DNA from: Caballeronia pedi
GTDB taxonomy: Bacteria > Pseudomonadota > Gammaproteobacteria > Burkholderiales > Burkholderiaceae
NCBI RefSeq assembly: GCF_001544915.2
Contig: NZ_FCOE02000016.1
Location: 1 to 64,000 of the forward strand
Length of the DNA stretch: 64,000 nt
Reading direction: 5' to 3'
In this document: positions 27-38,862 of the stretch, piece after piece
Numbering within the stretch: the stretch's first letter is position 1
Layout of the letters: the number at the start of each line of letters is the position of its first letter
Position numbers and translations under genes: made by a program
Notes under the pieces: generated by a model
Seen by the model: only the letters and a program-made list of their open reading frames with translations
The model's database searches: none
Told to the model about the DNA's origin: nothing

Positions 27-32
27 GAAAAA

Positions 33-20587: not shown

Positions 20588-21637
20588 ATGAACTCCACTC
20601 AATCTTCCAGCGATGGAACCGGCTGGACCGACAAACTCGACGACGCGACCACGCTCGCGATGCTCGTCAGGGAGATCGGCGAGCAACAGACCAAACTCGC
20701 GACGAGCAGCCACACGGGCCTGAACGGGCAGGTCGATCGCGCGCAGCATCAGAAGCAGTTGCTCGGCACTTTCGGAACGCTTCGGATTGCAGATGATATT
20801 CCCGATGCACTGCGCTTCGGGCCGTTCGCCTCGTCAGCGCCGAAGGCGTATCGCGTCGCCTGTCGCATCTCCAACGGACAGCCGTGCCCGCAATCCGACA
20901 CCGCATCCGACGTGCGCGGCATCGCGATCAAGTTCTTCACGCAAGAGGGCGTCGAAACCGATCTGCTGATGACGAACGAAGGCGGCCGCTCGCACGCGCG
21001 CAACGCGGTGCAGTTCATGGCCGTCGCGGATATCATCGTCGCGCTGCTTTCCGAGGGACCGGTGAGCGGCATCGCGCAGGGCTTGCGCGAAATGATGATG
21101 GCGAAGCTCGGGCCTGTCGAAGCCGCGCGCATTCTCGCGATTCTCTTCAAGGAAACCAAGGCGCATCACGTCGACAGCGTCGCGACGGAACACTACTGGG
21201 GATCGGTCGTGCAACTGGGGCGCGCGGCGATCAAGTACTCGCTTCATCCGCATCCTTCGACGCCCGCCGGAACGAACGCCGAACGCCACGGCGACAATTA
21301 TCTGCGCGCCGACATCTTCAACCGCCTGGAACAGGGTCCGGTGAAATGGAAAGTGGGCCTGCAATGCTTCGTCGATGAAACCACGACGCCCGTCAACGAC
21401 GCCTCCGTGGCGTGGAAGTCGGATGTCGTGATGATCGGCGAACTCGAAATCGCTGCGCCGCCGTCGAGCGATGACGAAGCCCGCATCGACCAGCTCGCCT
21501 TCAATCCGGCCAACGGCTTCGCGCCGCTCGGCATCACGCACGCGCGCCAGGATGTCTACGCCGCGAGCGCCGCGAATCGCAAAGGACGTGGCGTGCTGTC
21601 GAGCGACGAAGCACGCGCGCTGCTGGCTTCGCATTGA
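20588..21637 (+). CDS. Catalase-family (short, SrpA-like) haem protein
   Basis: 349 residues, shorter than classical catalases. Family landmarks are RAQHQKQLLGTF, with His54 as candidate distal residue, YRVACRISNGQ, DVRGIAIKFF, then EHYWGSVVQLGRAAIKYSLHP and, near the end, LAFNPANGFAPLGITHARQDVY. I do not see the R-x3-Y proximal haem-ligand motif of true catalases. Short members act as organic peroxidases or related haem enzymes. AGTCCGGAGG precedes the ATG. No signal peptide, unlike the two genes before it. Confidence 0.75.
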   Translation: MNSTQSSSDGTGWTDKLDDATTLAMLVREIGEQQTKLATSSHTGLNGQVDRAQHQKQLLGTFGTLRIADDIPDALRFGPFASSAPKAYRVACRISNGQPCPQSDTASDVRGIAIKFFTQEGVETDLLMTNEGGRSHARNAVQFMAVADIIVALLSEGPVSGIAQGLREMMMAKLGPVEAARILAILFKETKAHHVDSVATEHYWGSVVQLGRAAIKYSLHPHPSTPAGTNAERHGDNYLRADIFNRLEQGPVKWKVGLQCFVDETTTPVNDASVAWKSDVVMIGELEIAAPPSSDDEARIDQLAFNPANGFAPLGITHARQDVYAASAANRKGRGVLSSDEARALLASH

Positions 21638-21739
21638 ACGCCATCGTCGCGCGACTGCGCAGAACCGCACGTCGCGCGATACTTTTCTCCGATAATGATG
21701 CGCACTCGCCCATGCGTATCATCGCTATCGGAGTTCGCT

Positions 21740-22660
21740 ATGCATCTCGCCGGCATGATTCTTCCGATCTTCGCCATCATCGTGGCGGGATGGGTGGCGC
21801 GTGTCTCGGGCTACATGCCGCACGCGCTGGCGCCGTCGCTGATGCAGTTCGCGTATTACGTCGCGATGCCCGCGCTGGTCTTCCTCACCATCGCCGAAGA
21901 ATCGCTGCGCGCGCTGCTCGAATGGGGCTTTCTCGCCGCGTTCGGCGGCGGCTCGATGCTCTGCTTCGTGCTGATGTTGCTGGCCTTGCGATTCGCGCGC
22001 GGCGCAAGCCTCGGCGCGAGCGCCATGCTCGCCGCCGCCGTCTCGATGACCAACACTGGTTTCGTCGCGCTGCCGATTCTGAAAACGCTGTACGGCAAAC
22101 CCGGCGTGCTCGCGGCGGCGGTCGCGACCGTGTTCGTCGGCGCGATCATGTTTCCCGTGCTCGTCGTGTTGCTGGAAATCAGCCGCTACGATGCATCGCG
22201 CAAGATCAGCGCGGTGGCGCTGTTGCGTCAGATCGGGACCAATCCCGTGATTCTCGCGACGATCTGCGGACTGTTGTGGTCCGTCGCCGGATTCACGCTG
22301 CCCGGACCGGTCGCGTCCTTTCTCACGATACTCGGCGAAGCACTGACGCCGTGCGCGCTCTTCGCTATCGGACTCGATCTGACCTTCAGCGAATTGCGCG
22401 GACGCGTGAGTCTGTATGCGCTGCTCACGGCGCTCAAGCTCGCGGTCGTGCCGCTCGTCGTGTACGCGTTGTGCCTGGCGACGGGACTGAGTCGCACCGC
22501 AACCATCGCGGCGGTCGTCTGCGCCGCCGTGCCGACCGCCAAGAGCGCGTACGTGCTCGCATCCGAATACGACATCGAGAAGACCGTTGTTGGCGCGGCC
22601 ATTTCGATGACCACGCTCCTCTCGATCGTCACGTTGCTCGCGTGGCTCTACGTGCTCTAG
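21740..22660 (+). CDS. AEC-family (auxin efflux carrier-like) permease
   Basis: 306 residues with about ten membrane segments in two five-helix halves: ILPIFAIIVAGWVARVSGYM, SAMLAAAVSMTNTGFVALPI and the later GEALTPCALFAIGLDL, the usual AEC signatures. Bacterial AEC carriers move malonate, malate or other organic anions; the substrate cannot be read here. The start at 21740 fits the first membrane segment. It is convergent with the LysR gene, ending seven bases away. Confidence 0.85.
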   Translation: MHLAGMILPIFAIIVAGWVARVSGYMPHALAPSLMQFAYYVAMPALVFLTIAEESLRALLEWGFLAAFGGGSMLCFVLMLLALRFARGASLGASAMLAAAVSMTNTGFVALPILKTLYGKPGVLAAAVATVFVGAIMFPVLVVLLEISRYDASRKISAVALLRQIGTNPVILATICGLLWSVAGFTLPGPVASFLTILGEALTPCALFAIGLDLTFSELRGRVSLYALLTALKLAVVPLVVYALCLATGLSRTATIAAVVCAAVPTAKSAYVLASEYDIEKTVVGAAISMTTLLSIVTLLAWLYVL

Positions 22661-23653: not shown

Positions 23654-24499
23654 CTACGCCGCTTCTTTTCTGTAGCGCAACGGCGTCGTGCCGAGCCGTC
23701 CGGAAAAGAGCGCCGTCATATGCTGCTGCGATGAAAACCCGCACGCCGCCGCGACCTCGACGAGCGGCGCGCTACCCGAGCGCAGCATCTGCGCGGCCGC
23801 GTCGATGCGCTTTTCCAGCACGTAGCGATAGAGCGAATGACCGGTGCGCGCCTTCACGCCGTCGAACACGGCGCGCACGGGCAGATCGAGTTCAGCGGCG
23901 ATATCGGCGCAGGAAAGACTCTGGTCGATGTTGTCCGCGACATACGCTTCGAGCGTCGCGAAGCCGGCGTCCGTCAGCGCCGACTTGCGCTCGCGCGCCG
24001 CGCGTTCGAGATGGCGCGTCGTTTCGATCCACGCGAGCGTGGCGACGCACTGCAGCTCCCACGGATCGACCTTGGCCGGCTCGCCGTGCGCGTTCTGACG
24101 CGCATAACGCACGAGATGGCGGATCGAATCCGCGCCGAGATTGCTGCGGCTGCCCGCGCGCCGCAACGGCTCCGCGCTGCGCTCGGCGATGCGGTTCACG
24201 AAGGTATCCGCATAACGAAACGCGATGAAACCGTGCCGCACGTCGTGCGCATCGATGCGCATGCTTTCGCCGCGCGGGTGATACGCCGCCGTTTCCGCGC
24301 GAAAGGTGAATCGCGCGGCGGGGCCGTCGTCGTAGCGCGTATCGGAGACGATCGTGCCGAGCAGCAGGCAGATCATGTCCGACGAATTGCTCAACGCCAG
24401 CGAATAAGGGCGCGGGCCCGAGATGCAGTATTCGAGTCCCGGCACGCCCGCGATCGTGCTGAAGCGATCGATGCGGGCGGCCGCGGCAGGGGCGCTCAT
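23654..24499 (-). CDS. AraC-family regulator, divergent from the hydroquinone operon
   Basis: 281 residues. The N-terminal effector domain is of the AraC_binding type; the C-terminal AraC HTH is complete (SCADIAAELDLPVRAVFDGV, then VAAACGFSSQQHMTALFSGR and the typical TPLRYR end). Because it is divergent from the outer-membrane channel gene that starts the catabolic operon, with 249 bases between, it is the best candidate for the pathway activator. No effector can be read from sequence. Confidence 0.88.
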   Translation of the reverse strand: MSAPAAAARIDRFSTIAGVPGLEYCISGPRPYSLALSNSSDMICLLLGTIVSDTRYDDGPAARFTFRAETAAYHPRGESMRIDAHDVRHGFIAFRYADTFVNRIAERSAEPLRRAGSRSNLGADSIRHLVRYARQNAHGEPAKVDPWELQCVATLAWIETTRHLERAARERKSALTDAGFATLEAYVADNIDQSLSCADIAAELDLPVRAVFDGVKARTGHSLYRYVLEKRIDAAAQMLRSGSAPLVEVAAACGFSSQQHMTALFSGRLGTTPLRYRKEAA

Positions 24500-24748: not shown

Positions 24749-25681
24749 ATGCAGACGCGGCACCCACGACAGACGATTCGAAGACGGAGAACATGCACGC
24801 TCGCGCTGCTTGGCGCGGTTTGCTCGATGACGGCGCACGCGTCGGGCATTCCCTTCGCGACGGACCGCCCGCAAACCTGGCAGCTCAGCAGCGACTTCGA
24901 AGGCACGTACGATTCCTTCGGCCAGAACATCGAATGGAATCACGACAGCCGCGCGTTCGATTCGCACGGCAATCAGATCGCGGGCCCGGGCACGAACACC
25001 TTCGTCGGCCTCTCGACGTTCATTCACTACTGGAAAGTGCCGTCGCTGCCGCACGTCGGCTTCAACGCGAGCATCACGCTGCCCGCCATCCGCACGCAGG
25101 GCGCGCAGTTCTCGGCAAGCGGCATCGGGGACCCGCTCATCGGCGGGCTCGTCTGGTACAACCCCGCGCCCGCGACGACGCTCGGCTTTCAGGCCTACAT
25201 GCAGGTACCGATCGGGCAGGACGCGGTATCGACGAATACGTGGTCGTTCTGGCCGTCCGTCTTCTACGACGACTGGTACGGACACCTGAACGTGGACCTG
25301 CTGCTCGGCGGAATTTTGCGGGGACGCACGCTGCGCTCGGGGCACGACGACCTGAGCCCGGGCAACACATTTCATCTGAACCTGCGTGTCGGCTACAGCA
25401 TCTCGCCGCCCGACAACCCCTTCGCGATTCCGTTCGTCGGTTTCGACTACCAGACGAGCGGCGGCACGTTCAATCAGACCGCATCGATACCGGTCTCGAA
25501 CAGCGCGAGCCGCGAAACGACCGTGGGTATCGGCGTGCTGTTCCAGTTCAAGCCGAACAGCCTGCCGTTCCTGCACCAGAAGATGTACGACCAGCTTTCC
25601 ATCCAGTACCAGCACTCGGTTTCGGGGCGCAACACGACGCTCACCAACGGAATTCTCGTGCAGGCGTGGCACTACTGGTGA
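24749..25681 (+). CDS. Outer-membrane channel of the phenol/meta-pathway (SphX-like) family
   Basis: 310 residues. Signal peptide to about residue 33 (CSMTAHASG), then a barrel with alternating aromatic strands: GLSTFIHYWKVPSLPHVGFN, GFQAYMQVPIGQDAVS, GVLFQFKPNSLPFL, ending in a Trp. Family members sit at the front of aromatic-degradation operons and are believed to admit hydrophobic substrates. Starts with a clear ribosome site (CGGAGACGACG). It is the first gene of the catabolic operon; the dehydrogenase gene follows after 25 bases. Confidence 0.85.
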   Translation: MQTRHPRQTIRRRRTCTLALLGAVCSMTAHASGIPFATDRPQTWQLSSDFEGTYDSFGQNIEWNHDSRAFDSHGNQIAGPGTNTFVGLSTFIHYWKVPSLPHVGFNASITLPAIRTQGAQFSASGIGDPLIGGLVWYNPAPATTLGFQAYMQVPIGQDAVSTNTWSFWPSVFYDDWYGHLNVDLLLGGILRGRTLRSGHDDLSPGNTFHLNLRVGYSISPPDNPFAIPFVGFDYQTSGGTFNQTASIPVSNSASRETTVGIGVLFQFKPNSLPFLHQKMYDQLSIQYQHSVSGRNTTLTNGILVQAWHYW

Positions 25682-25706
25682 GCACATTCGAACGATGGAG
25701 ACGGAC

Positions 25707-27431
25707 ATGAGTGAGACGAATAAGCCTTCAGCCGCATCGCGGCGCAACTTCATCAAGGCCGCGGGCGCGGGCACGGCAGCGGCGGCATTCGGCGCGGTAT
25801 CGCTGAGCGCGCGCGCCGCGAGCGAACTCAAATTCGACGCGGAGTACGACGTCGTCGTGTGCGGCGGCGGCGGAGGCGGGCTGCCTGCGGCGCTTTTTTC
25901 GCGCTGGCTCGGCAACCGCGTCGCGATTCTGGAGAAGGCGGGCAGCGTCGGAGGAACGGCCGCGAAGGCCGCGTTCTGGTACTGGGTGCCGAACAACGAG
26001 CCGATGCGCCGCGCGGGCATCGCCGATCCGAAGCCCGATTACATGCGCTACGTCGCGCGTCTGTCGCGGCCCGAGCAATACGATCCGTCGCTGCCGAAGC
26101 TCGGCCTCTCCGACTGGGAGTACGAGATGTGCGAGGCCGTCTACGACAGCGCATCGCCCGCTGCGGAACTGCTGGCGAGCAAGGGCGCGCTGCCGTATCG
26201 GCATGAAGCGGCCGTGCCGGATTACTGGGCCGAGTTGCCGGAAGACAAGGCGCCGCGCGGACGCGTTCTGTTTCCGAAAGACGGCCTGCCGAGCATGTCG
26301 GATGGCGGGCGCGTCGCGATTCGCACGATGAGCGCGGCGGCACGGCGCGACGGCATCGACATCAAAACGGGGTATCGCGTGCAGAAAGTGCTCGTCGACG
26401 AATCGGGCGCGGTGATCGGCGTCGAGGCGCTGACGGAAGAAGACACGCTGTTCCGCGTCCGCGCGAAAAAAGCGGTGATCTTCGCGACGGGCGGCTTCAC
26501 GCACGATCCCGAGTTGCGCAAGAACTTCCTGCACGGCGCGGTGTACGGCGGCTGTGCCGCACCGACCAACGAAGGCGACTTCGTGCGCATCTCCAGCGCG
26601 CTCGACGTGCAGTTGCGCAACATGAACTATTCGTGGATGGCGCCGATCTCGCTCGACAAGGCGATCGCAAAAGACGGCTCGCTCTCCGGCATCTTCACGC
26701 CCACGGGCGATTCGATGCTCTACGTGAACAAGTACGGCAAGCGCATCGTCAACGAGAAGCTCGCCTACAACGAAGTCTGTGCGACGTTCTCCGATTGGGA
26801 CGGCGCGAAGGGCGAGTATCCGAACCTCACGCTGATTTCGATCTGGGATCAGCAGGCGCAGGACCACTGCGCGAGCGACGACTACGGCAGTCTCATCGTG
26901 CCGAAGGGTTCGAACGACCGGCACGTTCTGCGCGGCAACACGCTCGCGGAACTGGCGAGCGCGATTCGCGAACGCATGGCGAAGTACAGGAGCGCGCTCG
27001 GCAATGCGGATCTCTCCGCCGACTTCCTGCGCAATCTCGACGCGACGATCAAGCGCTTCAACGGCTTCGCGAAGGCGGGCGTCGATGGCGACTTTCATCG
27101 CGGCGAGCGCATCGTCGAAAAACTGTTCAACGGGCCGGTATCGAAGAAGCCGGATCAGAAAAACGAGACGATGTATCCGCTCAGCGCGAAAGGGCCGTAT
27201 TACGCGGCGCTGATCGTCGCGGGCAATCTCGATACCAAGGGCGGTCCGAAAACCAATTCGCACGCACAAGTGCTCGATACGCGCGGTGCTCCGATCAAGG
27301 GCCTGTACGGGGTCGGCAATTGCGTCGCGTCGGCGTCGGCGCGCGCTTACTGGGCGGGCGGCGGCACGCTCGGACCGATCATCGCGTTTGCTTATCGTGC
27401 CGCGCAATCGGCCAATGGAGTTCAGTCATGA
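25707..27431 (+). CDS. Tat-exported FAD dehydrogenase, 3-ketosteroid delta-1-dehydrogenase-like
   Basis: 574 residues. Twin-arginine signal (SRRNFIKAAGAG), hydrophobic run, cut near ARA. FAD fold: EYDVVVCGGGGGGLPAALF near residue 50 and the C-terminal SARAYWAGGGTLGPIIAFAY. Tyr548 and Gly552 align with the catalytic Tyr487 and Gly491 of steroid delta-1-dehydrogenase, which removes two hydrogens next to a ring ketone. Known relatives also desaturate oxocyclohexane carboxylates. Export is unusual for this family, but the neighbouring c-type cytochrome would accept the electrons. The start is 25707; an in-frame ATG at 25695 lacks a ribosome site. Overlaps the cytochrome gene by four bases. Confidence 0.8.
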   Translation: MSETNKPSAASRRNFIKAAGAGTAAAAFGAVSLSARAASELKFDAEYDVVVCGGGGGGLPAALFSRWLGNRVAILEKAGSVGGTAAKAAFWYWVPNNEPMRRAGIADPKPDYMRYVARLSRPEQYDPSLPKLGLSDWEYEMCEAVYDSASPAAELLASKGALPYRHEAAVPDYWAELPEDKAPRGRVLFPKDGLPSMSDGGRVAIRTMSAAARRDGIDIKTGYRVQKVLVDESGAVIGVEALTEEDTLFRVRAKKAVIFATGGFTHDPELRKNFLHGAVYGGCAAPTNEGDFVRISSALDVQLRNMNYSWMAPISLDKAIAKDGSLSGIFTPTGDSMLYVNKYGKRIVNEKLAYNEVCATFSDWDGAKGEYPNLTLISIWDQQAQDHCASDDYGSLIVPKGSNDRHVLRGNTLAELASAIRERMAKYRSALGNADLSADFLRNLDATIKRFNGFAKAGVDGDFHRGERIVEKLFNGPVSKKPDQKNETMYPLSAKGPYYAALIVAGNLDTKGGPKTNSHAQVLDTRGAPIKGLYGVGNCVASASARAYWAGGGTLGPIIAFAYRAAQSANGVQS

Positions 27432-27805
27432 TTCGTATAGCTAATCTATTGACGATGCTCGTGCTCGTCAGCACTGCGGCGCACGCGCAGCAAGATCCCG
27501 CCGCACTCGGCAAGAAGCTCGCGACCAACAACTGCGCCGTGTGCCACACGTTCGGCAAGGGCGAGCCGAATGGGCAGGGGCCGAACCTCTTCGGGATCAT
27601 TGGCCGGCCGCTCGCATCGGATCCGGGCTTCAAGTACTCGGCGGGCATGAAGGCGGCCGCGCCGGGCAAGGTCTGGGACGACAAGCTGCTCAATGCCTGG
27701 CTCACCGACACGCAATCCGTCGCGCCCGGCAATGCGATGACCTATTTCGAAGGCGATGAAGCGAGGCGGCAAAAGATCATCGCGTATCTGCGCACGCTGC
27801 ATTGA
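27428..27805 (+). CDS. c-type cytochrome, electron acceptor for the exported dehydrogenase
   Basis: 125 residues. Signal peptide (LLTMLVLVSTAAHA), one haem motif CAVCH near residue 36, and Met ligand candidates in YSAGM and NAMTYFEG; a class I cytochrome of the c2/c550 type. Translationally coupled to the dehydrogenase by ATGA overlap, which implies paired function. The partnership is inferred. Confidence 0.86.
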   Translation: MIRIANLLTMLVLVSTAAHAQQDPAALGKKLATNNCAVCHTFGKGEPNGQGPNLFGIIGRPLASDPGFKYSAGMKAAAPGKVWDDKLLNAWLTDTQSVAPGNAMTYFEGDEARRQKIIAYLRTLH

Positions 27806-27828
27806 ACTCAACCACAGGAGACGAAAGC

Positions 27829-28275
27829 ATGAACACCCTCATCATGACCGACGAGCAGCGCAAGACCATCGCGCTCGAATACCTTCGCAGGCTGGATCGC
27901 GGCGCACCATTCTTCGATCTGTTCGACGACAACGCCGAAGTCTATTTCCCGAAGTGGGGCATCGCGACGGGCCGCGCGGCCTTCGAGAAACTCTTCGCGG
28001 ATCTCGGCTCGATCGTCGAGAAATTCAAGCACGATCTCGCATATCTGAACGTGATCCAGCAGGGCGATACGGTGGTCGTCGAAGGCACGAGTTACGGCAC
28101 GACGAAGAGCGGTGCCGAGTGGCGCGCGGGCGTCACGCACGCGGGCCGCTGGATCGATGTCTTCGAAATACGCGACTTCAAAATTCAGCGCTGCTTCATC
28201 TATCTCGATCCCGACTACGAAGGCGCGGACACGCAGCGCTATCCGTGGCTGGCGGACAAGCAGGCGCAGCAGTAA
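27829..28275 (+). CDS. NTF2/SnoaL/ketosteroid-isomerase-like protein
   Basis: 148 residues without signal peptide. The cone-fold pattern is visible: EYLRRLDRGAPFFDLFDDNA, then VYFPKWGIATGRAAFEKLF and a final beta sheet (WIDVFEIRDFKIQRCFIYLD). Ketosteroid isomerases move a proton beside a ketone, so the protein could tautomerise the product of the dehydrogenase. The catalytic Asp and Tyr cannot be assigned without alignment. CAGGAGACG precedes the ATG. Confidence 0.7.
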   Translation: MNTLIMTDEQRKTIALEYLRRLDRGAPFFDLFDDNAEVYFPKWGIATGRAAFEKLFADLGSIVEKFKHDLAYLNVIQQGDTVVVEGTSYGTTKSGAEWRAGVTHAGRWIDVFEIRDFKIQRCFIYLDPDYEGADTQRYPWLADKQAQQ

Positions 28276-28412
28276 GTACTTTCCCTAGGGTTGCGATCGA
28301 GCACGCGACGTTCGGCAAACGCGAACCTCGATTCATTGCCTCGCGACGCTCGCAGCCCTAATCTTGATTCCAGCGCGACACCGCGAACGTGAACGCAGAC
28401 ATGGAGACAGAC

Positions 28413-28904
28413 ATGCAACAGACCCAACTCGGCAGCCTCGACAACTATCGCAAAGGCTCCATCGAAATCATCAAGGGCAAGGCCGCGCATTACGTGATGT
28501 CGAACGTGTTCGAAGTCGCGAGCCATGCGGCGCCGTATGAAAAAGTGGTCGTCGGCAAGAACCTCAAATACGTCATCGAAACGCTGCGGGCCGAAGGCGT
28601 GTCGCCGTGGTTCACCGCATCGCACGATGAATTCGCGGTCGCGCTCGACGGCGAAATCGACGTGCATTTCATCAAGCCGTCCGATGGCGCGCTCGTTGGC
28701 GAGAGCATCGAAGGCACGGTGAAACTCGAGGGCGAACCTTCGGGCCAGAAGATGGGCTTCGTGCGTCTGCGGCGCGGTCATCAGGCGCTGTTGCCTGCGG
28801 GCGCGGCGTATCGCTTCGATGCGAGACAAACCGGCGTGCTGCTCGTGCAGACCATTCTCGGCGCGGAATCCGTCGAGAAATGGGCCGATATCTGCATTCA
28901 ATGA
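28413..28904 (+). CDS. hapC: Hydroquinone dioxygenase small (alpha) subunit
   Basis: 163 residues, about 18 kDa, matching HapC of Pseudomonas fluorescens ACB and PnpC. A cupin-like fold with EFAVALDGEIDVHFIKPSDG and HQALLPAGAAYRFDA but no evident metal site; the small subunit helps close the active site. I chose the ATG at 28413 with GGAGAC upstream; in-frame ATG 28401 and GTG 28389 also exist. The large subunit follows 35 bases later. Confidence 0.85.
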   Translation: MQQTQLGSLDNYRKGSIEIIKGKAAHYVMSNVFEVASHAAPYEKVVVGKNLKYVIETLRAEGVSPWFTASHDEFAVALDGEIDVHFIKPSDGALVGESIEGTVKLEGEPSGQKMGFVRLRRGHQALLPAGAAYRFDARQTGVLLVQTILGAESVEKWADICIQ

Positions 28905-28939
28905 ACGCCACTCACTCTCAACCTTCGGAGCAAGACACC

Positions 28940-29935
28940 ATGAATCAAGCCACGTTTCTGCAAAGCGTCGTAGCGACCGATCCCGATGCGAATACCGGCT
29001 ATCGCACGTTCCGGCTCGGCGACTTCGAATTCAGCCGCGACGCATACTTCGTCACCGTGAAATGGCCGGCGCAAGGCCAGACACGCTCGCATCAGATGCA
29101 CGCCGACGACTTCCTGCGCGCGATGATGCGCGATGTCGCGTGGGGCTTCTTCTACGGCTGGGTCAACTTCGACGAAGTGATCGGCACGCGCAATCACTAC
29201 GGCAAGGTGGACATGTACGCCGGTGCGTATAACGCGAGCTTCCGCGAGGCGGGCGTCGATTACACGCAGCAGTTCGAAACGCCGATCATCATGGCGACCT
29301 TCAAGGCGATCCTGAAGGACTGGGTCAACGAAGGTTTCGACCCATTCGCCGCGCCCGAGGAAACCGGCTCGGCGTTCGGCGCGAAGCATGGCGACAACAT
29401 CGCGGCGATCGACCGCACGCGCATCGCGACGAAGCGCATGCCCGGCATCGAAGGCGATTCCCCGCTGCGCGACGACTTCCCGGTGAATCGACAGTTCGCG
29501 GATGTCTCGCAGGACGAGCCGGAGATTCACGCCGCGCCGGGATTCGAAGGGCAGTTGCACGCGTTCAGTCTCTTCAAGTATCTGTCGCGTTCGGACGTGA
29601 CGTGGAATCCTTCGGTCACATCCGTCTGCAAGCAAAGCCTCTTTTGCCCGACGACCGAGGAATTCGTGCTGCCGGTCTTTCATGGCAACGACCGCGTCGA
29701 GTGGTTCCTGCAACTGTCGGATCAGATCATCTGGGACGTCGCCGACAAGGACACCGGCGAGCCGCGCGCACGCATCACGATGAACGCCGGCGATATCGCC
29801 GCGATGCCCGCCGACATCCGCCACAAGGGTTATTCGCAGAAGCGCTCGATGCTGCTCGTATGGGAGAACGCGACGCCCGATCTGCCCAAGCGCTACGAAA
29901 GCGGCGAACTGCCGCCGTATCCGGTCGCGCTTTAA
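28940..29935 (+). CDS. hapD: Hydroquinone dioxygenase large (beta, catalytic) subunit
   Basis: 331 residues, about 38 kDa, the size of HapD/PnpD. The iron ligands fit: His248, Asn250 and Glu254 in FHGNDRVEWF and His295 in IRHKGYS. The spacing (0, 2, 6, 47) equals that of the PnpD ligands His256, Asn258, Glu262 and His303 as I recall them. The enzyme opens hydroquinone to 4-hydroxymuconic semialdehyde with O2 and Fe(II) in the cytoplasm. CGGAGCAAG precedes the ATG. Confidence 0.9.
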   Translation: MNQATFLQSVVATDPDANTGYRTFRLGDFEFSRDAYFVTVKWPAQGQTRSHQMHADDFLRAMMRDVAWGFFYGWVNFDEVIGTRNHYGKVDMYAGAYNASFREAGVDYTQQFETPIIMATFKAILKDWVNEGFDPFAAPEETGSAFGAKHGDNIAAIDRTRIATKRMPGIEGDSPLRDDFPVNRQFADVSQDEPEIHAAPGFEGQLHAFSLFKYLSRSDVTWNPSVTSVCKQSLFCPTTEEFVLPVFHGNDRVEWFLQLSDQIIWDVADKDTGEPRARITMNAGDIAAMPADIRHKGYSQKRSMLLVWENATPDLPKRYESGELPPYPVAL

Positions 29936-29962
29936 ACGTCTTCTTTTCGACACGAGCAACTC

Positions 29963-31426
29963 ATGCAAACGCAACTCTTCATCGATGGCCGCTTCGTGCC
30001 CGCCCTGTCCGGCGAAACGCTCGCGACCCTGAATCCGCACGACAACAGCGAGATCGCGCAGGTCTCGATGGCCGGCCGCGAAGACGTCGATCGCGCGGTG
30101 CAGGCCGCAAAAAAAGCGTTTCCGGCCTGGAGCAGCATGGCCGCCGCCGATCGCGGACGCCTGCTGCTGAAACTCGCCGATGCGATCGAAGCCAACGCCG
30201 ATGCCCTCGCGCGTCTCGAATCGATGGACACGGGCCATCCGATCCGCGATACGCGCAACCTCGACGTGCCGCGCACCGCCGCGACGTTCCGTTACTTCGG
30301 CGGCATGGCGGACAAGTTCGAAGGCTCGGTGATTCCGGTCGAAGCGGGCTTTCTCAACTATCTGACGCGCGAGCCGGTCGGTATCGTCGGGCAAGTGGTG
30401 CCGTGGAATTTTCCGCTGATGTTCACGAGCTGGAAGATGGCGCCCGCGCTCGCGGCGGGCAATTGCGTCGTGATGAAGCCGGCCGAACTCACGCCTTTGT
30501 CGAGTCTTGCCATCGCGGAGCTGATGGCCGAGGTCGGCTTTCCGGCGGGCGTGGTCAACGTGCTGCCGGGGCTTGGGCACGTCGCGGGGCAATACATCGC
30601 GGAGCATCCGGAGATCGGCAAGGTCGCGTTCACTGGATCGACGGCGGTAGGGCGCAAGGTCGTGCAGGCATCGAGCGGCAATCTGAAGAAGGTGCAGCTC
30701 GAACTCGGCGGCAAGGGCGCGAACGTCGTGTATAGCGATGCGAATCTCGATGCCGTCGTGCAAGGCTCCGCGTTCGGCATCTTTCACAATCAGGGGCAGG
30801 CGTGCATCGCGGCATCGCGTCTGATCGTGCACGAATCCATCGCCGATGAATTGCTGGAGCGCTTCACGTCGCTCGCGCGCTCGATCCGCATCGGCGATCC
30901 GCTCGATCCGTCGACGGAGCTGGGTCCGCTCACGTCGCAGATGCATCGCGACCGCGTGCTGTCCTATGTCGATGTCGCGCGCGAGCAGGGCGGCCGCGTG
31001 CTCGCGGGCGGCAAGGCGCCGGATGGCGCGGCGCTCGCGAACGGTTGCTATGTCGAGCCGACTATCGTGCAAGCGAAACCGACCGACCGTGTCGCGCAGG
31101 AAGAAGTGTTCGGCCCGTTCGTCACCGTCAGCACGTTCAAGAGCGACGAGGAAGCGCTCGCGATCGCCAACGGCACGGAATACGGCCTCGGCGCGGGCCT
31201 CTGGACGCGCGATCTGCAACGCGCGCATCTCGTCGCACGGCAGTTGAAGAGCGGCATGGTGTGGATCAACTGCTATAAGCGCGTGAGCCCGGGGTCGCCG
31301 TTCGGTGGCGTCGGCGCGAGCGGGTATGGGCGCGAGATGGGCTTCGAAGTGATGCGCGAATATACTCAGGCCAAGTCGGTGTGGGTGAATGTCGACGCCA
31401 ACATTCCGCCTTACTATCCGCGCTGA
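29963..31426 (+). CDS. hapE: 4-hydroxymuconic semialdehyde dehydrogenase
   Basis: 487 residues, an aldehyde dehydrogenase with catalytic Cys281 (GQACIAASR) and general base Glu247 (ELGGKGANVV). Position between the dioxygenase and the reductase matches HapE, which oxidises the ring-cleavage semialdehyde to maleylacetate using NAD(P). It is 27 bases after hapD. The name rests on operon order as much as on sequence, because the ALDH family is broad. Confidence 0.84.
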   Translation: MQTQLFIDGRFVPALSGETLATLNPHDNSEIAQVSMAGREDVDRAVQAAKKAFPAWSSMAAADRGRLLLKLADAIEANADALARLESMDTGHPIRDTRNLDVPRTAATFRYFGGMADKFEGSVIPVEAGFLNYLTREPVGIVGQVVPWNFPLMFTSWKMAPALAAGNCVVMKPAELTPLSSLAIAELMAEVGFPAGVVNVLPGLGHVAGQYIAEHPEIGKVAFTGSTAVGRKVVQASSGNLKKVQLELGGKGANVVYSDANLDAVVQGSAFGIFHNQGQACIAASRLIVHESIADELLERFTSLARSIRIGDPLDPSTELGPLTSQMHRDRVLSYVDVAREQGGRVLAGGKAPDGAALANGCYVEPTIVQAKPTDRVAQEEVFGPFVTVSTFKSDEEALAIANGTEYGLGAGLWTRDLQRAHLVARQLKSGMVWINCYKRVSPGSPFGGVGASGYGREMGFEVMREYTQAKSVWVNVDANIPPYYPR

Positions 31427-31440
31427 GCGCATCGGGAATC

Positions 31441-32496
31441 ATGCAATCGTTCATCTATCAGGGCATGCCGTCGCGCGTGGTGTTCGGCGCGGGAAGCATC
31501 GAAAATATCGAACGCGAGATCGAGTTTCTGGGCGCACAACGCGCGCTCATTCTCTCGACGCCGCCGCAGCGCGATCAGGCCGAAGCGCTCGCCGAACGAA
31601 TCGGCCATCGCGCGGCGGGCGTGTTCGCGAAAGCGGTGATGCATGTGCCGGTCGAAACGGCGCGAGAGGCGCGCGAGTATGCGCAGCGCATCGGCGCCGA
31701 TTGTGCGATCGCCATCGGCGGCGGTTCCACGACGGGCCTCGGCAAGGCGATCGCGTTGACATCGTCGCTGCCGATACTCGCCGTGCCGACCACCTATGCC
31801 GGCTCGGAGATGACGCCGATCTACGGCCTCACCGAAGCGGGATTGAAAAAAACCGGCCGCGACATGCGCGTGCTGCCGAAAACGGTGATCTACGATCCGC
31901 AACTGACGGTATCGTTGCCCGCCTCGCTTTCGGTGACGAGCGGCATCAACGCGATCGCGCACGCGGCCGAAGGGCTGTACGCGCAGGACGCGAACCCGGT
32001 GGTGAGCCTGATGGCGGAAGAGGGCATTCGCGCGCTGGCGCAGGGCATCGGCAAGGTGGTCGCGAAGCCGGACGATCTCGATGCGCGCGGCGATTGTCTC
32101 TACGGCGCGTGGCTGTGCGGCGCGGTGCTGGGCAGCGTCGGCATGTCGCTGCATCACAAGCTGTGTCACACGCTCGGCGGCACGTTCAACTTGCCGCATG
32201 CGGAAACGCATACCATCGTGCTGCCGCACGCGCTCGCCTATAACCGCGATGCCGCGCCGGATGCGATGAAGCGCATAGCCCGCGCGCTCGGTTCGGACGA
32301 TGCCGCGCGCGGTGCATTCGAACTCGCGCGCGCGAATGGCGCGCCGACCGCGCTGATGGACATCGGCATGAAGGAGAGCGAGATCGATATCGCCGTCGAT
32401 GTCGCGATGAAAAGCCCGTACTGGAATCCGCGACCGGTCGAACGCGCGCCGCTGCGCGCATTGATCGAAGCGGCCTACGAAGGACGACGACCATGA
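31441..32496 (+). CDS. hapF: Maleylacetate reductase
   Basis: 351 residues, an iron-type alcohol dehydrogenase of maleylacetate reductase length. The nucleotide site GGGSTTGLGKAIAL and the signature LHHKLCHTLGGTFNLPHAET, with conserved His residues, are present. It reduces maleylacetate to 3-oxoadipate with NAD(P)H, the common final step of the hydroquinone and hydroxyquinol routes. The ATG is taken at 31441; sequence upstream belongs to the previous gene. It overlaps the next gene by four bases. Confidence 0.9.
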   Translation: MQSFIYQGMPSRVVFGAGSIENIEREIEFLGAQRALILSTPPQRDQAEALAERIGHRAAGVFAKAVMHVPVETAREAREYAQRIGADCAIAIGGGSTTGLGKAIALTSSLPILAVPTTYAGSEMTPIYGLTEAGLKKTGRDMRVLPKTVIYDPQLTVSLPASLSVTSGINAIAHAAEGLYAQDANPVVSLMAEEGIRALAQGIGKVVAKPDDLDARGDCLYGAWLCGAVLGSVGMSLHHKLCHTLGGTFNLPHAETHTIVLPHALAYNRDAAPDAMKRIARALGSDDAARGAFELARANGAPTALMDIGMKESEIDIAVDVAMKSPYWNPRPVERAPLRALIEAAYEGRRP

Positions 32497-33311
32497 ACGA
32501 ATCACTCACGCAAAACGTCACCGCATCCTTTGGCCAGTGCGCCGATGCGCGCACGAAGGAAATCGTCACCACGCTGGTGCGCCACCTGCACGCGTTCGCG
32601 CGCGAAGTGAATCTCACGCACGACGAATGGCGACGCGGTATCGAGTTCCTCACCGCGACCGGCAAGAAATGCGATGGCATCCGTCAGGAGTTCATTCTGC
32701 TGTCGGATACGCTGGGGCTTTCGATCGTCCTCGATGACATCAACCAGCATCACGACGAGGCCGCGACCGAGAGCAGCCTGCTCGGGCCGTTCTATCGCGA
32801 TGGCGTGAAGGAGTCGGCATTCGGCGCGAACATCGCGCAAAGCGATGGCGAACCGGTGTTCTTTCACGGCGTCGTGCGCGATGTCGACGGCAAGCCAGTC
32901 CGCGATGCGTTGATCGAAGTCTGGCAGACCGCGCCGAACGGCATGTACGAAGGACAGGACCCGGACCAGCCCGAAGGCAACCTGCGCGGGCGTTTTCGCA
33001 CCAACGCGGACGGCGCGTACGCGTTTCATTCGATCAAGCCGACGAGCTATCCGATTCCGACCGATGGTCCCGTCGGCCAGATGCTCGTCGCAACGGGCCG
33101 TCATCCGATGCGTCCCGCACACATTCACTTTCGCATCGACGCGGCTGGCTACGAGTCGCTGACGACCGCGCTTTATTCGTCCGACGATCCCTACGTGAAC
33201 TCGGATGCGGTGTTCGGCGTGAAGCCTTCGCTCGTCATCGACTATGTGAGCAAGGAGGGCGGTTACGACGCAGCGCGCGATTTCGTGCTGATCGCGAGGG
33301 AGCGCGCGTGA
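32493..33311 (+). CDS. hapG: Intradiol ring-cleaving dioxygenase, hydroxyquinol 1,2-dioxygenase type
   Basis: 272 residues. An N-terminal helical domain (residues 5-85) is the dimer linker of the hydroxyquinol/catechol family; then the beta-sandwich with LGPFYRDGVKES, VWQTAPNGMYEGQD and the iron ligands: Tyr in NGMYEG and in SYPIPT, and His-x-His in RPAHIHF. It cleaves hydroxyquinol (1,2,4-trihydroxybenzene) to maleylacetate, which meets the hydroquinone branch. Called hapG by operon position; catechol as substrate cannot be excluded. Confidence 0.85.
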   Translation: MNESLTQNVTASFGQCADARTKEIVTTLVRHLHAFAREVNLTHDEWRRGIEFLTATGKKCDGIRQEFILLSDTLGLSIVLDDINQHHDEAATESSLLGPFYRDGVKESAFGANIAQSDGEPVFFHGVVRDVDGKPVRDALIEVWQTAPNGMYEGQDPDQPEGNLRGRFRTNADGAYAFHSIKPTSYPIPTDGPVGQMLVATGRHPMRPAHIHFRIDAAGYESLTTALYSSDDPYVNSDAVFGVKPSLVIDYVSKEGGYDAARDFVLIARERA

Positions 33312-33643
33312 GCCATCCGACATCGAACGATATCTGCGCGCTTCACGACGTACCCGATGGCGGCGGCGTCGAAGCCGCGCCGTCGATTCTCGTGCTGCGA
33401 CGCGGCGGCGAAGCGTGGGCGTATCGCAACGTATGCCCGCATTTCTCGATTCCGCTCAACTACGAGCCGGACGCGTTCTGGACTTACGAAGGCAGCCTGC
33501 TGATGTGCGCGCATCACAGTGCGATGTTCCGCTTCGAAGACGGCGTATGTGTCGATGGGCCTTGTCTCGGCGCGAGCCTCCGGCGCATTCCGATCCGCAT
33601 CGAGAATGGCCGCGTCGTGATCGAAGGCCCGGACATCACATAG
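33308..33643 (+). CDS. Rieske-type [2Fe-2S] ferredoxin
   Basis: 111 residues. Cluster ligands are in VCPHF and, 24 residues later, MCAHH, the C-x-H / C-x2-H pattern of soluble Rieske ferredoxins. Likely roles are keeping the iron of the dioxygenases reduced or serving an oxygenase elsewhere; this is inferred. GTGA overlap with hapG suggests translational coupling. The stop overlaps the convergent glycosidase gene by eight bases. Confidence 0.82.
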   Translation: MSHPTSNDICALHDVPDGGGVEAAPSILVLRRGGEAWAYRNVCPHFSIPLNYEPDAFWTYEGSLLMCAHHSAMFRFEDGVCVDGPCLGASLRRIPIRIENGRVVIEGPDIT

Positions 33644-35180: not shown

Positions 35181-35924
35181 TTACCCGGAAAGCGGCCGGT
35201 CCGGTTCGAGCGCCGCGCCGCCGAGAATCGAGTTGGCGTCGGCGCGCGCGTTGTCGAGCTGGACGACACTCGCCTGACGCGCGGCGAGCGCATCGCGGTT
35301 CGCGATGGCGGTGAAGATCGCCTTGTGGCGCGGGAGCGACAGCGCGTGCGTATTCGGATGACGGCTCGTGAGCCTGATCGATTCGCCGAGCGCGAGCGAC
35401 AGCATGTTGCCGATATACGCGAGCATGTCGTTGTGCGTCGCCATCATGATCGCGCGATGAAACTCGAGGTCCGGATCGAGCAGATCGGCGGCCGTTTTCG
35501 CGCTCTCCATGCGTTCATACGCGGCGCCGATGCGCGCGATATCGTCGTCCGTCGCGGAGATCGCCGCAAGCGCGGCGGCAGCGGGCTCGAAGATCTGGCG
35601 CACCGTCATCAGCGAGCGAAAGAACTCGCCTTCGGGAAGATGGCCGATGGTCCACACGAGCACGTCGGGGTCGAGCATGTGCCATTCGTCGCGCGCGCGC
35701 ACGACGCTGCCCACGCGCGGCTTCGACACGACGAGCCCCTTGGCGACGAGCACGCGCGTCGCTTCACGCAGCACCGGGCGGCTCACGCCATAGCTTTCGC
35801 AGAGCGTGGGCTCGGCGGGCAGACGCTCGCCCGGCTTGATGCCGCCGCTGACAATCTGCATGCCGAGCTCCTGCACGATGCGTCCGTGCATGCTCTTGCG
35901 CTGCCTGGGATTGCGGTAATCCAT
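35181..35924 (-). CDS. GntR-family (FadR/FCD) regulator of the sugar cluster
   Basis: 247 residues. The winged helix RLPAEPTLCESYGVSRPVLR is followed by an FCD all-helical effector domain with likely metal-binding histidines (EFHRAIMMATHN). Many such regulators control sugar-acid catabolism. It is the last gene after the ABC transporter genes (18 bases after the ATPase), so autoregulation with the operon is likely. Confidence 0.88.
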   Translation of the reverse strand: MDYRNPRQRKSMHGRIVQELGMQIVSGGIKPGERLPAEPTLCESYGVSRPVLREATRVLVAKGLVVSKPRVGSVVRARDEWHMLDPDVLVWTIGHLPEGEFFRSLMTVRQIFEPAAAALAAISATDDDIARIGAAYERMESAKTAADLLDPDLEFHRAIMMATHNDMLAYIGNMLSLALGESIRLTSRHPNTHALSLPRHKAIFTAIANRDALAARQASVVQLDNARADANSILGGAALEPDRPLSG

Positions 35925-35942
35925 GATGCGGTTCGCGGGGCG

Positions 35943-36752
35943 CTAGCTTGCGGTCGTCGCGCGCATCGCCCGATATTCCCGCCTCACGATATCCATCAAC
36001 TCCGCGACCGACGTATTCGCGCTGCGCTGTTCATACGTCACGCGGCCGCGCTGCATCAACATGATGCGATCCGCGATATCGAGCGTCTGCGCATAGTTGT
36101 GCATGATCATGATGATCGAGAGGCCGCCTTTCTCCTTCAGGCGCATCACGAGATCGATGATGAGCGCGGCCTCGCGCGCGCCCATCGCGGCGAGCGGCTC
36201 GTCGAGCAGCAGGATTTTCGCGTTCGAATGCACCGCGCGCGCGACGGCGATAGCCTGTCGCTGCCCGCCCGACAGGCGCTCCACGGGCAGATCGACGGAA
36301 GGCACATGCACGCCGATATCTTCGAGGCATTGCGCGGCGCGCTCGCGCATCTGCTTGTGATCGACGAGACGCAATATGCGGCCAGGCCCGCGCCGCACGA
36401 TCTCCCGATTGAGGAACATGTTGTGATAGATCGACAGCGAGTTCGCAAGCGCGAGATCCTGATACACGCATTCGATGCCGAGCGCGCGCGCATGATCGAC
36501 GGACTTGAGCAGCGTTTCCTCGCCGTGTACGCGCAGCGTGCCGCTCGTCTGCTGATGAAAGCCCGTGAGTATCTTGACGAGCGTCGATTTACCCGCGCCG
36601 TTGTCGCCGAGAATGCCGAGAATCTCGCCCTTGCCGAGCTGGAGCGAGACGCCGTCGAGTGCGGTCACGGCGCCGAAGCGCTTGACGAGGTTGTCGCCGC
36701 TGAGCGCGAGACCGGCTACATCGACGGGAGCCGTTTGCGGTTCTGCCATCAC
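35943..36752 (-). CDS. Sugar ABC transporter ATPase
   Basis: 269 residues, a single ATPase domain: Walker A GDNGAGKST, signature LSGGQRQAIAVAR, Walker B KILLLDEPLAA, and H-loop MIMHN. Shorter than the double-domain RbsA/XylG type, so it fits the single-domain FrcA-like subfamily of ribose/fructose-type importers. It overlaps the permease start by four bases. Confidence 0.9.
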   Translation of the reverse strand: MMAEPQTAPVDVAGLALSGDNLVKRFGAVTALDGVSLQLGKGEILGILGDNGAGKSTLVKILTGFHQQTSGTLRVHGEETLLKSVDHARALGIECVYQDLALANSLSIYHNMFLNREIVRRGPGRILRLVDHKQMRERAAQCLEDIGVHVPSVDLPVERLSGGQRQAIAVARAVHSNAKILLLDEPLAAMGAREAALIIDLVMRLKEKGGLSIIMIMHNYAQTLDIADRIMLMQRGRVTYEQRSANTSVAELMDIVRREYRAMRATTAS

Positions 36753-37759
36753 CGTGCTCCCCTGCGGCGAATGCGTCCGACGTGGATGTTGAAGATCATG
36801 GCGGCGAGAATCGCGGCCCCGAGAATGATGTTGAACGTGAACGCATTGATGCCGATCAGCGTGAAGCCGTCGCTCAGAATGCCGAGCACCGCCGCGCCCA
36901 GCAAGCCGCCGACGATCGTGCCCGAGCCGCCCGTCAACGGCGTGCCGCCGATCACCGCAGCGGCGACCGCGAGGAACATGATCTGATTGCCGCCCGCTTG
37001 CGGATCGATCGATGTGATGCGAAAGCTTTCGAGTACACCGGTGAAACCCGCGAGCACGGCGGCGATCACGAAATTCCCGAGCCGCAGCCGGTTCACGTGG
37101 ATGCCCGCCTCGCTCGCGCCGAGCGCATTCGCGCCGGCCGCCTGCGTATGCAGACCCCAGCGCGTATGCCGCAGCAGCACATGCATGACGAACGCGATCG
37201 CCACGGTCCAGATTATTTCGCTATAGCCCCACGCGCCCATCACGGCGGCGAACCCGGGCGAGCCGGGCGTCGCGGCGGGCGTGCCGCGTGAAACGGTCAG
37301 CGTGATGCCGTTGATCAGAAAGAGCGTGCCGAGCGTCGTCACGAACGAAGGCAGACGCAGATAGACCGTCACCGCGCCGTTGATGAAGCCGATGATCGCG
37401 GCCGCGATGAGGCCCGCGATCACCGCGAGCCACATCGGCGCGCCCGCATCGTTGGCGAACACCATCATGAACGGCGCGAACGCGAACACCATGCCCGCCG
37501 ACAGATCGATATCGCCGCCGATCATCAGCATGATCTCGCCGAACGCGATGATCGCGACCGGCGCAACGTACTGCGAGAGATTGACGAGGCTCGCGTTGCT
37601 GAGCAGGAAGTCGTGATTGACGAACTGGAAGTACGCCGCGAGCAGCGCGGCTACCAGAAGGATGCGCAACTCGGGCGCCCAGTGGGACGCCCACGCGCCG
37701 CGCGGACTGTCGATCCGCGCGGGCGTGGTTGCTTTACGAGGTTCGTTCACCGTGTTCAT
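36749..37759 (-). CDS. Sugar ABC transporter permease, RbsC/FrcC type
   Basis: 336 residues with about ten hydrophobic segments. Diagnostic sequences are GGDIDLSAGMVFAF and GTLFLINGITLTVSRG, typical of the branched-chain/ribose-type permease family. It pairs with the ATPase and the binding protein; ATGA overlaps on both sides suggest tight co-translation. Confidence 0.9.
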   Translation of the reverse strand: MNTVNEPRKATTPARIDSPRGAWASHWAPELRILLVAALLAAYFQFVNHDFLLSNASLVNLSQYVAPVAIIAFGEIMLMIGGDIDLSAGMVFAFAPFMMVFANDAGAPMWLAVIAGLIAAAIIGFINGAVTVYLRLPSFVTTLGTLFLINGITLTVSRGTPAATPGSPGFAAVMGAWGYSEIIWTVAIAFVMHVLLRHTRWGLHTQAAGANALGASEAGIHVNRLRLGNFVIAAVLAGFTGVLESFRITSIDPQAGGNQIMFLAVAAAVIGGTPLTGGSGTIVGGLLGAAVLGILSDGFTLIGINAFTFNIILGAAILAAMIFNIHVGRIRRRGAR

Positions 37760-38862
37760 CAGGACTTGATCGCGCCTTTCATCGGCACGATTTGCGGCTT
37801 GGTGGTCTTGCCTTCATAACGCGTCGAGGTGTTGAGATAAGGCTCGACCGTGTCCTTCGTCACGAACTTGAGACCCGTGTTGATGTTCGCCGGCCCGACC
37901 AGCCCGCCCGACGCGAGGAACACGAACGCTTCCATCACCGTGTAGAAGCCCTGCACGTAAGGCTGCTGGTCGATGGTGAAATCGAGGAAGCCTTCGTGGA
38001 TGAGCTGAATCGTCTGCGGCAACAGATCGAAGCCGCCGCCATGCACGCCCTTCGAAGGCAGGTTCGATTCCTTCATCACTTGAGCGACGCCCTGCGTGCT
38101 GCCCGCATCGACGGCGAACATGCCTTTCAGGTCCTGGTGGCCGAGATAGAACGACTTGATCTTCGAGAGTTCCTCGTTGACGGTCGCACCCGTCGCGACG
38201 GTCTGAATGTCGATCTTCTTGCCGGACTTCTTGATCGCATCGCTTGCGCCATCGAGACGCGGCTGGATGTTCAACTGCCCCGGCGTCGCGATGAAGAGCG
38301 CGACCATGCCGCTGTCGATCAGGCTCGCGATGCGTTCGCCCATCTGATAGCCCGACAGATACAGATCCTGCCCGATATACGCGAGCCGCGGATTGCTCTT
38401 GCCGCGCGGCGCGTCGGCGTTGTAAGCGAATACGGGAATGCCGGCGTCGAGCGCGGCCTGGATGGGCTTGTCGAAGGCGTTCGGATCGACGATCGGCACG
38501 GCGATCGCATCGGCTTTCGCGGCGATCGCGGAGTTCACCGCGCGCACCATTTCGCCCGCATCGGACGTGGCCGAGCCGGTCCACTGATAGTCCATGCCGA
38601 ACATGGCGCAGGCGTCCTGAATGCCGTATTGCGTCGGCACGAAGAACGGATTCGTCGTCACGTGATTGACGAACACGATCTTCCATTTCTTGTGCTGCGG
38701 AAACGCCGCTTCGGCGGCCTGCGCAGTCGAAATCAAGCCGCCGCCGGTCACACCGCCCAGCAGCGACAGCGCCGCCCCGAGTCCCGCGCCCTGCATGATG
38801 CCGCGCCGGCCCGCATTGATGAGGCTGCCGTGCTGTGCGTCGTCATCCCGATTCTCTGCCAT
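37759..38862 (-). CDS. Periplasmic sugar-binding protein of the ABC transporter
   Basis: 367 residues from the ATG at 38862 with CGGAGGAAG ahead. The leader has a twin-arginine-like run (NAGRRGIMQGAG) and a hydrophobic stretch, so Tat export is possible, which is unusual for this family. The mature protein has the type I sugar-binding fold (KWKIVFVNHVTTNPFFVPTQ, ADAIAVPIVDPNAF, KGMFAVDAGSTQGVAQV). First gene of the operon, divergent from the dehydratase. Confidence 0.88.
   Translation of the reverse strand: MAENRDDDAQHGSLINAGRRGIMQGAGLGAALSLLGGVTGGGLISTAQAAEAAFPQHKKWKIVFVNHVTTNPFFVPTQYGIQDACAMFGMDYQWTGSATSDAGEMVRAVNSAIAAKADAIAVPIVDPNAFDKPIQAALDAGIPVFAYNADAPRGKSNPRLAYIGQDLYLSGYQMGERIASLIDSGMVALFIATPGQLNIQPRLDGASDAIKKSGKKIDIQTVATGATVNEELSKIKSFYLGHQDLKGMFAVDAGSTQGVAQVMKESNLPSKGVHGGGFDLLPQTIQLIHEGFLDFTIDQQPYVQGFYTVMEAFVFLASGGLVGPANINTGLKFVTKDTVEPYLNTSTRYEGKTTKPQIVPMKGAIKS

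Follow-up and report, generated by a model that had tools for sequence, protein, structure and literature searches.

The operon considered here lies in a 64,000-nucleotide stretch of Caballeronia pedi DNA (contig NZ_FCOE02000016.1 of assembly GCF_001544915.2, positions 1 to 64,000, forward strand), referred to below as the window. It spans positions 24749-33643 and comprises ten genes, all on the + strand. The front end codes for an outer-membrane channel of the MetA/phenol-degradation type (24749-25681; PF13557, 4e-21), a flavoprotein of the cyclohexanone dehydrogenase (CDH) class with a twin-arginine translocation (Tat) export signal (25707-27431; PF00890, 1e-46), an exported c-type cytochrome (27428-27805; PF00034, 1.7e-9) whose gene start overlaps the end of the flavoprotein gene by 4 bases, and an NTF2/SnoaL-fold protein (27829-28275; SnoaL_2, PF12680, 1.9e-10). 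These are followed by the small, PnpC/HapC-like subunit (28401-28904; 4zxa_A, 1.8e-59; alternative start at 28413, matching the annotation of Caballeronia sp. NK8) and the large, PnpD/HapD-like subunit (28940-29935; PF18191, 1.6e-80; 4zxa_W, 5.8e-180) of a hydroquinone 1,2-dioxygenase, PnpCD; an aldehyde dehydrogenase (29963-31426; PF00171, 1.8e-177); a maleylacetate reductase (31441-32496; 3hl0, 1.9e-120; 3w5s, 1.1e-119); an intradiol hydroxyquinol 1,2-dioxygenase (32493-33311; 3n9t, 1e-91; 1tmx, 4.7e-65), whose best catechol dioxygenase match is far weaker (4.3e-37); and a Rieske-type ferredoxin (33308-33643; PF00355, 5e-8). Divergent from the operon, on the - strand, is an AraC-family regulator (23654-24499; PF12833, 1.3e-15) that may control it. 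Loci of Caballeronia and Paraburkholderia, and part of the alphaproteobacterial ones, likewise have an AraC-type gene next to the flavoprotein gene. Every gene listed in the initial annotation of this DNA was recovered, in the same order and on the + strand.

The aldehyde dehydrogenase is, by position, the 4-hydroxymuconic semialdehyde dehydrogenase (HapE/PnpE), its specificity being read from context. Together with the two-subunit dioxygenase and the maleylacetate reductase, it places all of these Hap/Pnp pathway enzymes in the operon, the back end of which is, as predicted from sequence, a complete hydroquinone pathway. A HapA- or PnpA-type monooxygenase to feed this pathway is absent from the operon, the regulator, and 17 further window genes scanned (two of them without any family match), just as the initial annotation had claimed. 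The identical gene set is annotated on plasmid pNK83 of Caballeronia sp. NK8, and of the 16 Caballeronia loci among the best 80 of 110 flavoprotein relatives, 14 carry the whole operon. The genome of the window itself has one PnpD match (1e-10).

The closest solved structures to the flavoprotein are 8AM3, 8AM6, and 8AM8 (E 6e-252 to 6e-250), which are the CDH (EC 1.3.99.14) of Alicycliphilus denitrificans K601 (PMC10966990). Over the 569 residues aligned with 8am3, 357 are identical (63%). The roles of the catalytic, FAD-linking, gate, and pocket residues are those given for CDH in PMC10966990. The catalytic residues Tyr195, Tyr376, Tyr570, and Gly574 of CDH correspond to Tyr175, Tyr356, Tyr550, and Gly554 of the flavoprotein when numbered from 25701; the last two are the Tyr548 and Gly552 that had earlier been noted as retained, which is correct with numbering from the start at 25707. 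Cys305, to which FAD is linked in CDH, aligns with Cys285, where a covalent bond is predicted, and the gate and pocket residues Trp113, Tyr415, Phe496, Phe352, and Leu530 are all five identical. This means that 10 of 10 functional residues are kept (four catalytic, the FAD-linked Cys, three gate, and two further pocket residues). In a family alignment of 84 rows, one of them the window's protein, every one of these positions is conserved in 83 rows or more; the only exceptions are Tyr415 and Phe496 in the long-branch row L072 and Tyr570 and Gly574 in L063, the end of which looks broken. With CDH as the nearest characterized relative and all ten residues conserved, the substrate is likely to be a small cyclic ketone. 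The delta-1-type desaturation of such a ketone, as first proposed, is supported by this relationship and by the unchanged pocket.

Two other substrates can be weighed. A true 3-ketosteroid delta-1-dehydrogenase (KstD) would share the fold and the Tyr/Gly pair, and KstD structures do match the flavoprotein at E 4e-35. However, this is set against the CDH match of 6e-252, and the 3-ketosteroid NCBIfam models reach less than one-third of their cut-offs (at best 219.5 of 789 bits); the assignment is scarcely credible and was rejected. The substrate could also be another small ring ketone, such as an alkylated 4-oxo- or 4-hydroxy-cyclohexanone, that would yield a substituted hydroquinone cleavable by PnpCD-type enzymes. 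CDH accepts 3-methyl- and 4,4-dimethylcyclohexanone (PMC10966990), and the hydroquinone dioxygenase of Pseudomonas fluorescens accepts methyl-, ethyl-, methoxy-, and chloro-hydroquinones (PMC3727088). The CDH pocket, however, is described as hydrophobic, tightly closing, and scarcely larger than its substrate, with 3,3,5-trimethylcyclohexanone no substrate (PMC10966990), and this possibility is very unlikely. CDH deviates at six positions from residues common to at least 97% of the family. Two of them, 110 and 192 in CDH numbering, sit three residues before Trp113 and Tyr195; CDH has Ser110 and Ala192, where Ala and Val, respectively, stand in at least 97% of the family rows once L072 is excluded. 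These two positions are candidate specificity determinants.

The link between the flavoprotein and hydroquinone, which the initial annotation had drawn from the operon, is supported by genome co-occurrence and by the gene neighborhoods of homologues. Among 399 sampled Burkholderiales genomes, with both proteins scored at E 1e-60 or better, 6 contain the flavoprotein and 10 contain PnpD; every one of the 6 is also among the 10. The hypergeometric probability of this overlap is 4e-11 when genomes are counted. Counting genera (4 of 4) gives 1.4e-6, or 3e-5 without the genus of the window. The two genes are 1.5 kb apart in the window and 8-11 kb apart on one contig in G023, G065, G118, and G157, while in G342 PnpD is on another contig. 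The wider neighborhoods were taken from the best 80 of the 110 relatives, with flanks of up to 10 kb (some contigs are shorter), and genes were labeled by tblastn with the window's proteins, so that distant hydroxyquinol dioxygenase (HQDO) and maleylacetate reductase (MAR) labels denote similarity; a flavin enzyme, MOX24, was labeled by clustering of open reading frames (ORFs). Within these flanks, SnoaL was found in 74 loci, PnpD in 35, HQDO-like genes in 45, MAR-like genes in 48, and MOX24 in 12; 59 loci have one or more of the PnpD, HQDO-like, MAR-like, and MOX24 genes. Two loci counted as PnpD-negative, L059 and L060, have PnpD about 11 kb away.

PnpCD adjoins the flavoprotein in three gene orders: that of Caballeronia, that of Pseudomonas, with a LysR-type gene between, and that of Variovorax, Piscinibacter, and Azohydromonas, with PnpCD upstream. 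Beyond the flanks, PnpD was found somewhere in 22 of 35 genomes or records, picked mostly for a PnpD-less locus; for example, the genomes of L035, L036, L062, and L071 have a PnpD 91-92% identical to that of the window.

In other lineages, the flavoprotein is accompanied by MOX24, a FAD_binding_3 enzyme with a ring-hydroxylase C-terminal domain (two members scanned) that is phenol-hydroxylase-like. None of the 12 MOX24 loci has PnpD in its flank. MOX24 and an HQDO-like gene stand beside the flavoprotein in both Labrys loci and in 6 of 9 actinobacterial loci (Geodermatophilus 2/3, Pseudonocardia 2/2, Solirubrobacter 2/2; not L067, L068, or L085), and PnpD is absent from five genomes tested of these actinobacterial and Labrys loci (L070, L077, L079, L082, and L088). 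The other MOX24 loci are L040 of Marinobacter and L080, L093, and L096 of Paraburkholderia. Bacteria have two branches from hydroquinone, one of them via hydroxylation to hydroxyquinol, and hydroquinone hydroxylases are grouped with phenol 2-monooxygenases (PMC3727088). The simplest reading is that hydroquinone is the common product behind the PnpCD and the MOX24/HQDO loci. Near MOX24 in L080 (positions 3860-8444) are a VOC-type (extradiol-like) dioxygenase, a fumarylacetoacetate-hydrolase-family gene, and a gene that is BKACE-like by its start. Some of these L080 clusters recur in L040, L093, and L096, and such a neighborhood is possibly a third, meta-type ring opening.

Sugar-type importers occur near the flavoprotein in seven alphaproteobacterial loci, Shinella among them. 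L083 has an ATP-binding cassette (ABC) ATPase-permease fusion (PF00005+PF02653), and L017, L074, and L086 have Peripla_BP_4 binding proteins, all of them scanned. In Pseudonocardia L082, a mycofactocin-type short-chain dehydrogenase/reductase (SDR) adjoins the flavoprotein. These importers and the SDR suggest that some of the lineages start from an alcohol or polyol further upstream. They would also suit a flavoprotein acting as desaturase on a hydroxylated cyclohexanone, derived for instance from quercitol or deoxyinosose, with the SnoaL protein dehydrating the product to hydroquinone or hydroxyquinol. The HQDO-like genes in 45 of 80 loci are consistent with this, and the NTF2 fold includes dehydratases. 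Yet the importers in the Variovorax, Marinobacter, and Labrys loci are Liv-type in look (by eye), and the tight, hydrophobic pocket described for CDH (PMC10966990), with residues constant in the family, argues against a cyclitol-like substrate, which is unlikely. The fusions and binding proteins, the former about 850 residues long, are at L074:13506-16103, L083:7390-9963, L086:7393-9963, and L017:8025-12815. L083, from a metagenome-assembled genome, also has two old-yellow-enzyme-like genes near the flavoprotein (positions 1-4550), one of them Pfam-confirmed.

The N-terminus of the flavoprotein is Tat-type (SRRNFI), with PF10518 at 20.9 bits, below its cut-off of 22.7. In an 80-row table of the family, 50 rows combine a Tat-type signal with a neighboring CxxCH protein, 28 lack both, and 2 are discordant. 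Both discordant rows are explained, L019 by a cytochrome detected by tblastn and L088 by a twin-arginine match just before the likely start. This table is without L018, L069, L072, and L077, which the core motif missed; in a separate table holding these four, L069 and L072 have both features and L018 and L077 neither. The agreement in 78 of 80 rows speaks for the cytochrome as the partner that accepts electrons when the enzyme is exported, and the exported cytochrome c is the likely electron acceptor of the flavoprotein. In a quick tree built without 13 of the 16 Caballeronia loci, the Tat-bearing rows group together in a single branch of 42 (Shimodaira-Hasegawa-like approximate likelihood ratio test [SH-aLRT] 99). 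Because this branch is single, the agreement reflects few evolutionary events, not 78 independent ones. CDH falls inside the branch, beside L059, L060, and L064 (SH-aLRT 83), although it is a long row and its placement is unsure. In these three loci, an HQDO-like gene directly follows the cytochrome gene.

A genome with the identical CDH gives a further comparison. G731 encodes a protein 100% identical to CDH over 570 residues; we take this genome for that of A. denitrificans K601 or of a closely similar strain. Its CDH gene adjoins a cytochrome c (51% identical to that of the window) and a molybdenum hydroxylase subunit. An SDR and a MetA-type channel (PF13557, as in the window) lie 4.6-6.3 kb away, and ORFs resembling insertion sequences (IS) by look are also present. 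A molybdoenzyme and the cyclohexanol pathway of A. denitrificans K601 are described in PMC3692508. The combination of channel, exported desaturase, and cytochrome already exists for a cyclic ketone, and the hydroquinone genes are what differs. One could consider, then, that the flavoprotein of the window is a plain cyclohexanone dehydrogenase that makes 2-cyclohexenone as in A. denitrificans, the hydroquinone genes being a neighbor with another job. The 63% identity, the unchanged pocket, and the CDH neighbors in G731, among them a cytochrome c, a MetA-type channel, and an SDR, would fit this. Against it are an operon without an MhyADH-like molybdoenzyme and the presence of PnpD in 6 of 6 flavoprotein genomes and in three gene orders, and it appears distinctly improbable.

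The SnoaL-fold protein had been credited with a possible role akin to ketosteroid isomerase (KSI) in speeding tautomerization, and this part of the initial annotation is weak. The protein has the NTF2/KSI fold, which here is not distinguishable from limonene epoxide hydrolase or polyketide-cyclase folds, and no signal peptide was seen by eye. Sequence and profile searches against solved structures gave no convincing relative, the best profile match (E 0.009) being a designed protein. In a weak alignment (E 0.13) with the KSI-like SalBIII (5cxo), the EDP stretch of the latter falls on YFP. At the position of the catalytic Asp (Asp38 of tKSI), the protein has Phe40, and so do all 34 rows of one alignment (A3; the window's protein plus 33 rows from 42 nonredundant references of 74) and at least 90% of the 38 rows of another (A2), with Leu in one Shinella copy. 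By eye against a KSI sequence, Tyr18 (at least 90%) and Asp110 (34/34) are at places that may match the oxyanion residues Tyr14 and Asp99 of KSI, and the Tyr18 match is also seen in the weak 5cxo alignment. KSI function was rejected: the fold is confirmed, and the catalytic Asp base is apparently absent. In the 399 genomes, a SnoaL homologue was found in three (that of the window, G065, and G153), all PnpD-positive; that most flavoprotein genomes of the sample show none also speaks against the KSI-like role.

On balance, we favor a route in which the exported CDH-type desaturase would make hydroquinone from a 1,4-dioxygenated cyclohexane, an oxidative entrance from nonaromatic six-ring ketones. 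The mechanism follows the desaturation chemistry put forward for CDH on structural grounds (PMC10966990) and would apply to the flavoprotein because the residues are identical. A small substrate (cyclohexane-1,4-dione, or 4-hydroxycyclohexanone after oxidation) would enter through the MetA-type channel. Tyr356, the counterpart of the base Tyr376, would take the alpha-carbon proton, and the beta-carbon hydride would pass to the FAD held by Cys285, with Tyr550 and Gly554 binding the carbonyl; the electrons would go on to the coupled cytochrome c. The product, cyclohex-2-ene-1,4-dione, is the keto tautomer of hydroquinone and would aromatize to it, spontaneously or with the SnoaL protein. PnpCD, the aldehyde dehydrogenase, and the maleylacetate reductase would then convert hydroquinone to 3-oxoadipate by steps established for their homologues. 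We infer the substrate, the direction of flow, and the roles of the channel, the cytochrome, and the SnoaL protein. Of the original interpretation, the desaturation of a small ring ketone and the hydroquinone link have stood, while the enzyme class proved to be already described and the KSI role did not hold up.

Several observations weigh against this route. We know of no natural source of cyclohexane-1,4-dione. Four of the 10 PnpD genomes (G084, G153, G285, and G350) are without the flavoprotein; a crude scan for flavin-monooxygenase motifs over about 20 kb of the PnpCD regions of G285, G350, and G084 (L158, L160, and L161) found none convincing. None of PnpD, HQDO-like, MAR-like, or MOX24 genes is in the flank of 21 of the 80 loci, and 16 of 18 such gene-poor loci searched genome-wide have an HQDO homologue elsewhere, a raw count. 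Neither PnpD nor HQDO was found genome-wide for L032, L040, and L072. MOX24 and PnpD can occur in one genome, since L080 and L093 come from genomes that have PnpD at another place. Four of the six flavoprotein genomes in the 399-genome sample have no SnoaL homologue. The nine cyclic ketones, lactones, and lactams assayed with CDH include no 1,4-dione (PMC10966990), and no published assay of cyclohexane-1,4-dione was found. Also, G731, searched genome-wide at 1e-10, has neither a PnpD nor a SnoaL homologue, so the CDH family does not always serve hydroquinone. The initial annotation had named homologues that go with unrelated pathways, without hap genes, as evidence against itself; G731 is one clear case of this, and the hydroxyquinol-route lineages are so in part. 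As a separate observation, L032 (Candidatus Paraburkholderia schumanniana) has kept the channel, flavoprotein, cytochrome, and SnoaL genes in a genome of 2.4 Mb.

Outside the operon, the window has a sugar-type ABC importer at 35181-39252, to which the NK8 annotation adds a GntR-type regulator and then an IlvD/Edd dehydratase; this region is probably a separate sugar pathway. Upstream, at 20588-22660, are catalase-like and AEC-type transporter genes. The same pair is present in NK8, preceded by a small cytochrome c, and the AEC-type transporter remains upstream in the Caballeronia loci carrying the whole operon.

The periplasmic entrance had been put forward as new. Cyclic-ketone dehydrogenases that are exported and have a cytochrome c neighbor are already known (PMC10966990, PMC3692508). 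The hydroquinone link was met nowhere in print: the open-licence literature, where absence is weak evidence, gave by title nothing that ties CDH or cyclohexanedione to hydroquinone degradation, and on bacterial degradation of 4-hydroxycyclohexanone only unrelated work. As far as open-access searches go, what is new is the repeated pairing of a CDH-class enzyme with hydroquinone degradation, the enzyme class, export signal, and cytochrome neighbor being known. A broader proposal, about which we are slightly more doubtful than convinced, is that CDH-type desaturases form a widespread oxygenase-free aromatization route in Proteobacteria and Actinobacteria. They would aromatize small 1,4-oxygenated cyclohexanes to hydroquinone, whose ring is then cleaved by PnpCD or, once hydroxylated, by hydroxyquinol dioxygenase, with one branch exported and cytochrome-linked and another without Tat signal or cytochrome; the cyclohexanone degradation of A. 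denitrificans would be an offshoot of this older trait. If the favored route is right, soil bacteria aromatize a saturated ring with no oxygenase involved and go on to break down the product, giving alicyclic ketones a third fate besides Baeyer-Villiger oxidation and hydration. The newly structured CDH family would gain a natural substrate class, useful in enzymatic ketone desaturation, and some hydroquinone clusters without a monooxygenase could be accounted for.

Among known systems, the Hap cluster of P. fluorescens and the Pnp clusters have PnpCD/HapCD, the semialdehyde dehydrogenase, and the maleylacetate reductase in common with the operon, and they also carry an intradiol dioxygenase. 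The operon differs in having no acetophenone or nitrophenol monooxygenase and, as its front end, a cyclic-ketone desaturase with a cytochrome c; the HapA and PnpA routes use an oxygenase, whereas the proposed route would form the aromatic ring without one. In cyclohexanecarboxylate aromatization, the KstD-like desaturases ChcC1 and ChcC2 (4-oxocyclohexanecarboxylate desaturases) convert an alicyclic ketone to a phenol, with 4-hydroxybenzoate as the end product; the flavoprotein scores 214.9 of 1000 and 155.3 of 900 bits with their NCBIfam models. KstD shares the fold and the Tyr/Gly active-site logic (PMC10966990) but is distant in sequence, and the flavoprotein pocket is small. For CDH of A. 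denitrificans, the genome with the identical enzyme, G731, differs from the window in lacking PnpD and SnoaL, and the neighbors there include a molybdenum hydroxylase, an SDR, and, by look, IS-like ORFs; the Tat-type N-terminus, the FAD-linking Cys, the catalytic, gate, and pocket residues, and a neighboring cytochrome c are common to CDH and the flavoprotein.

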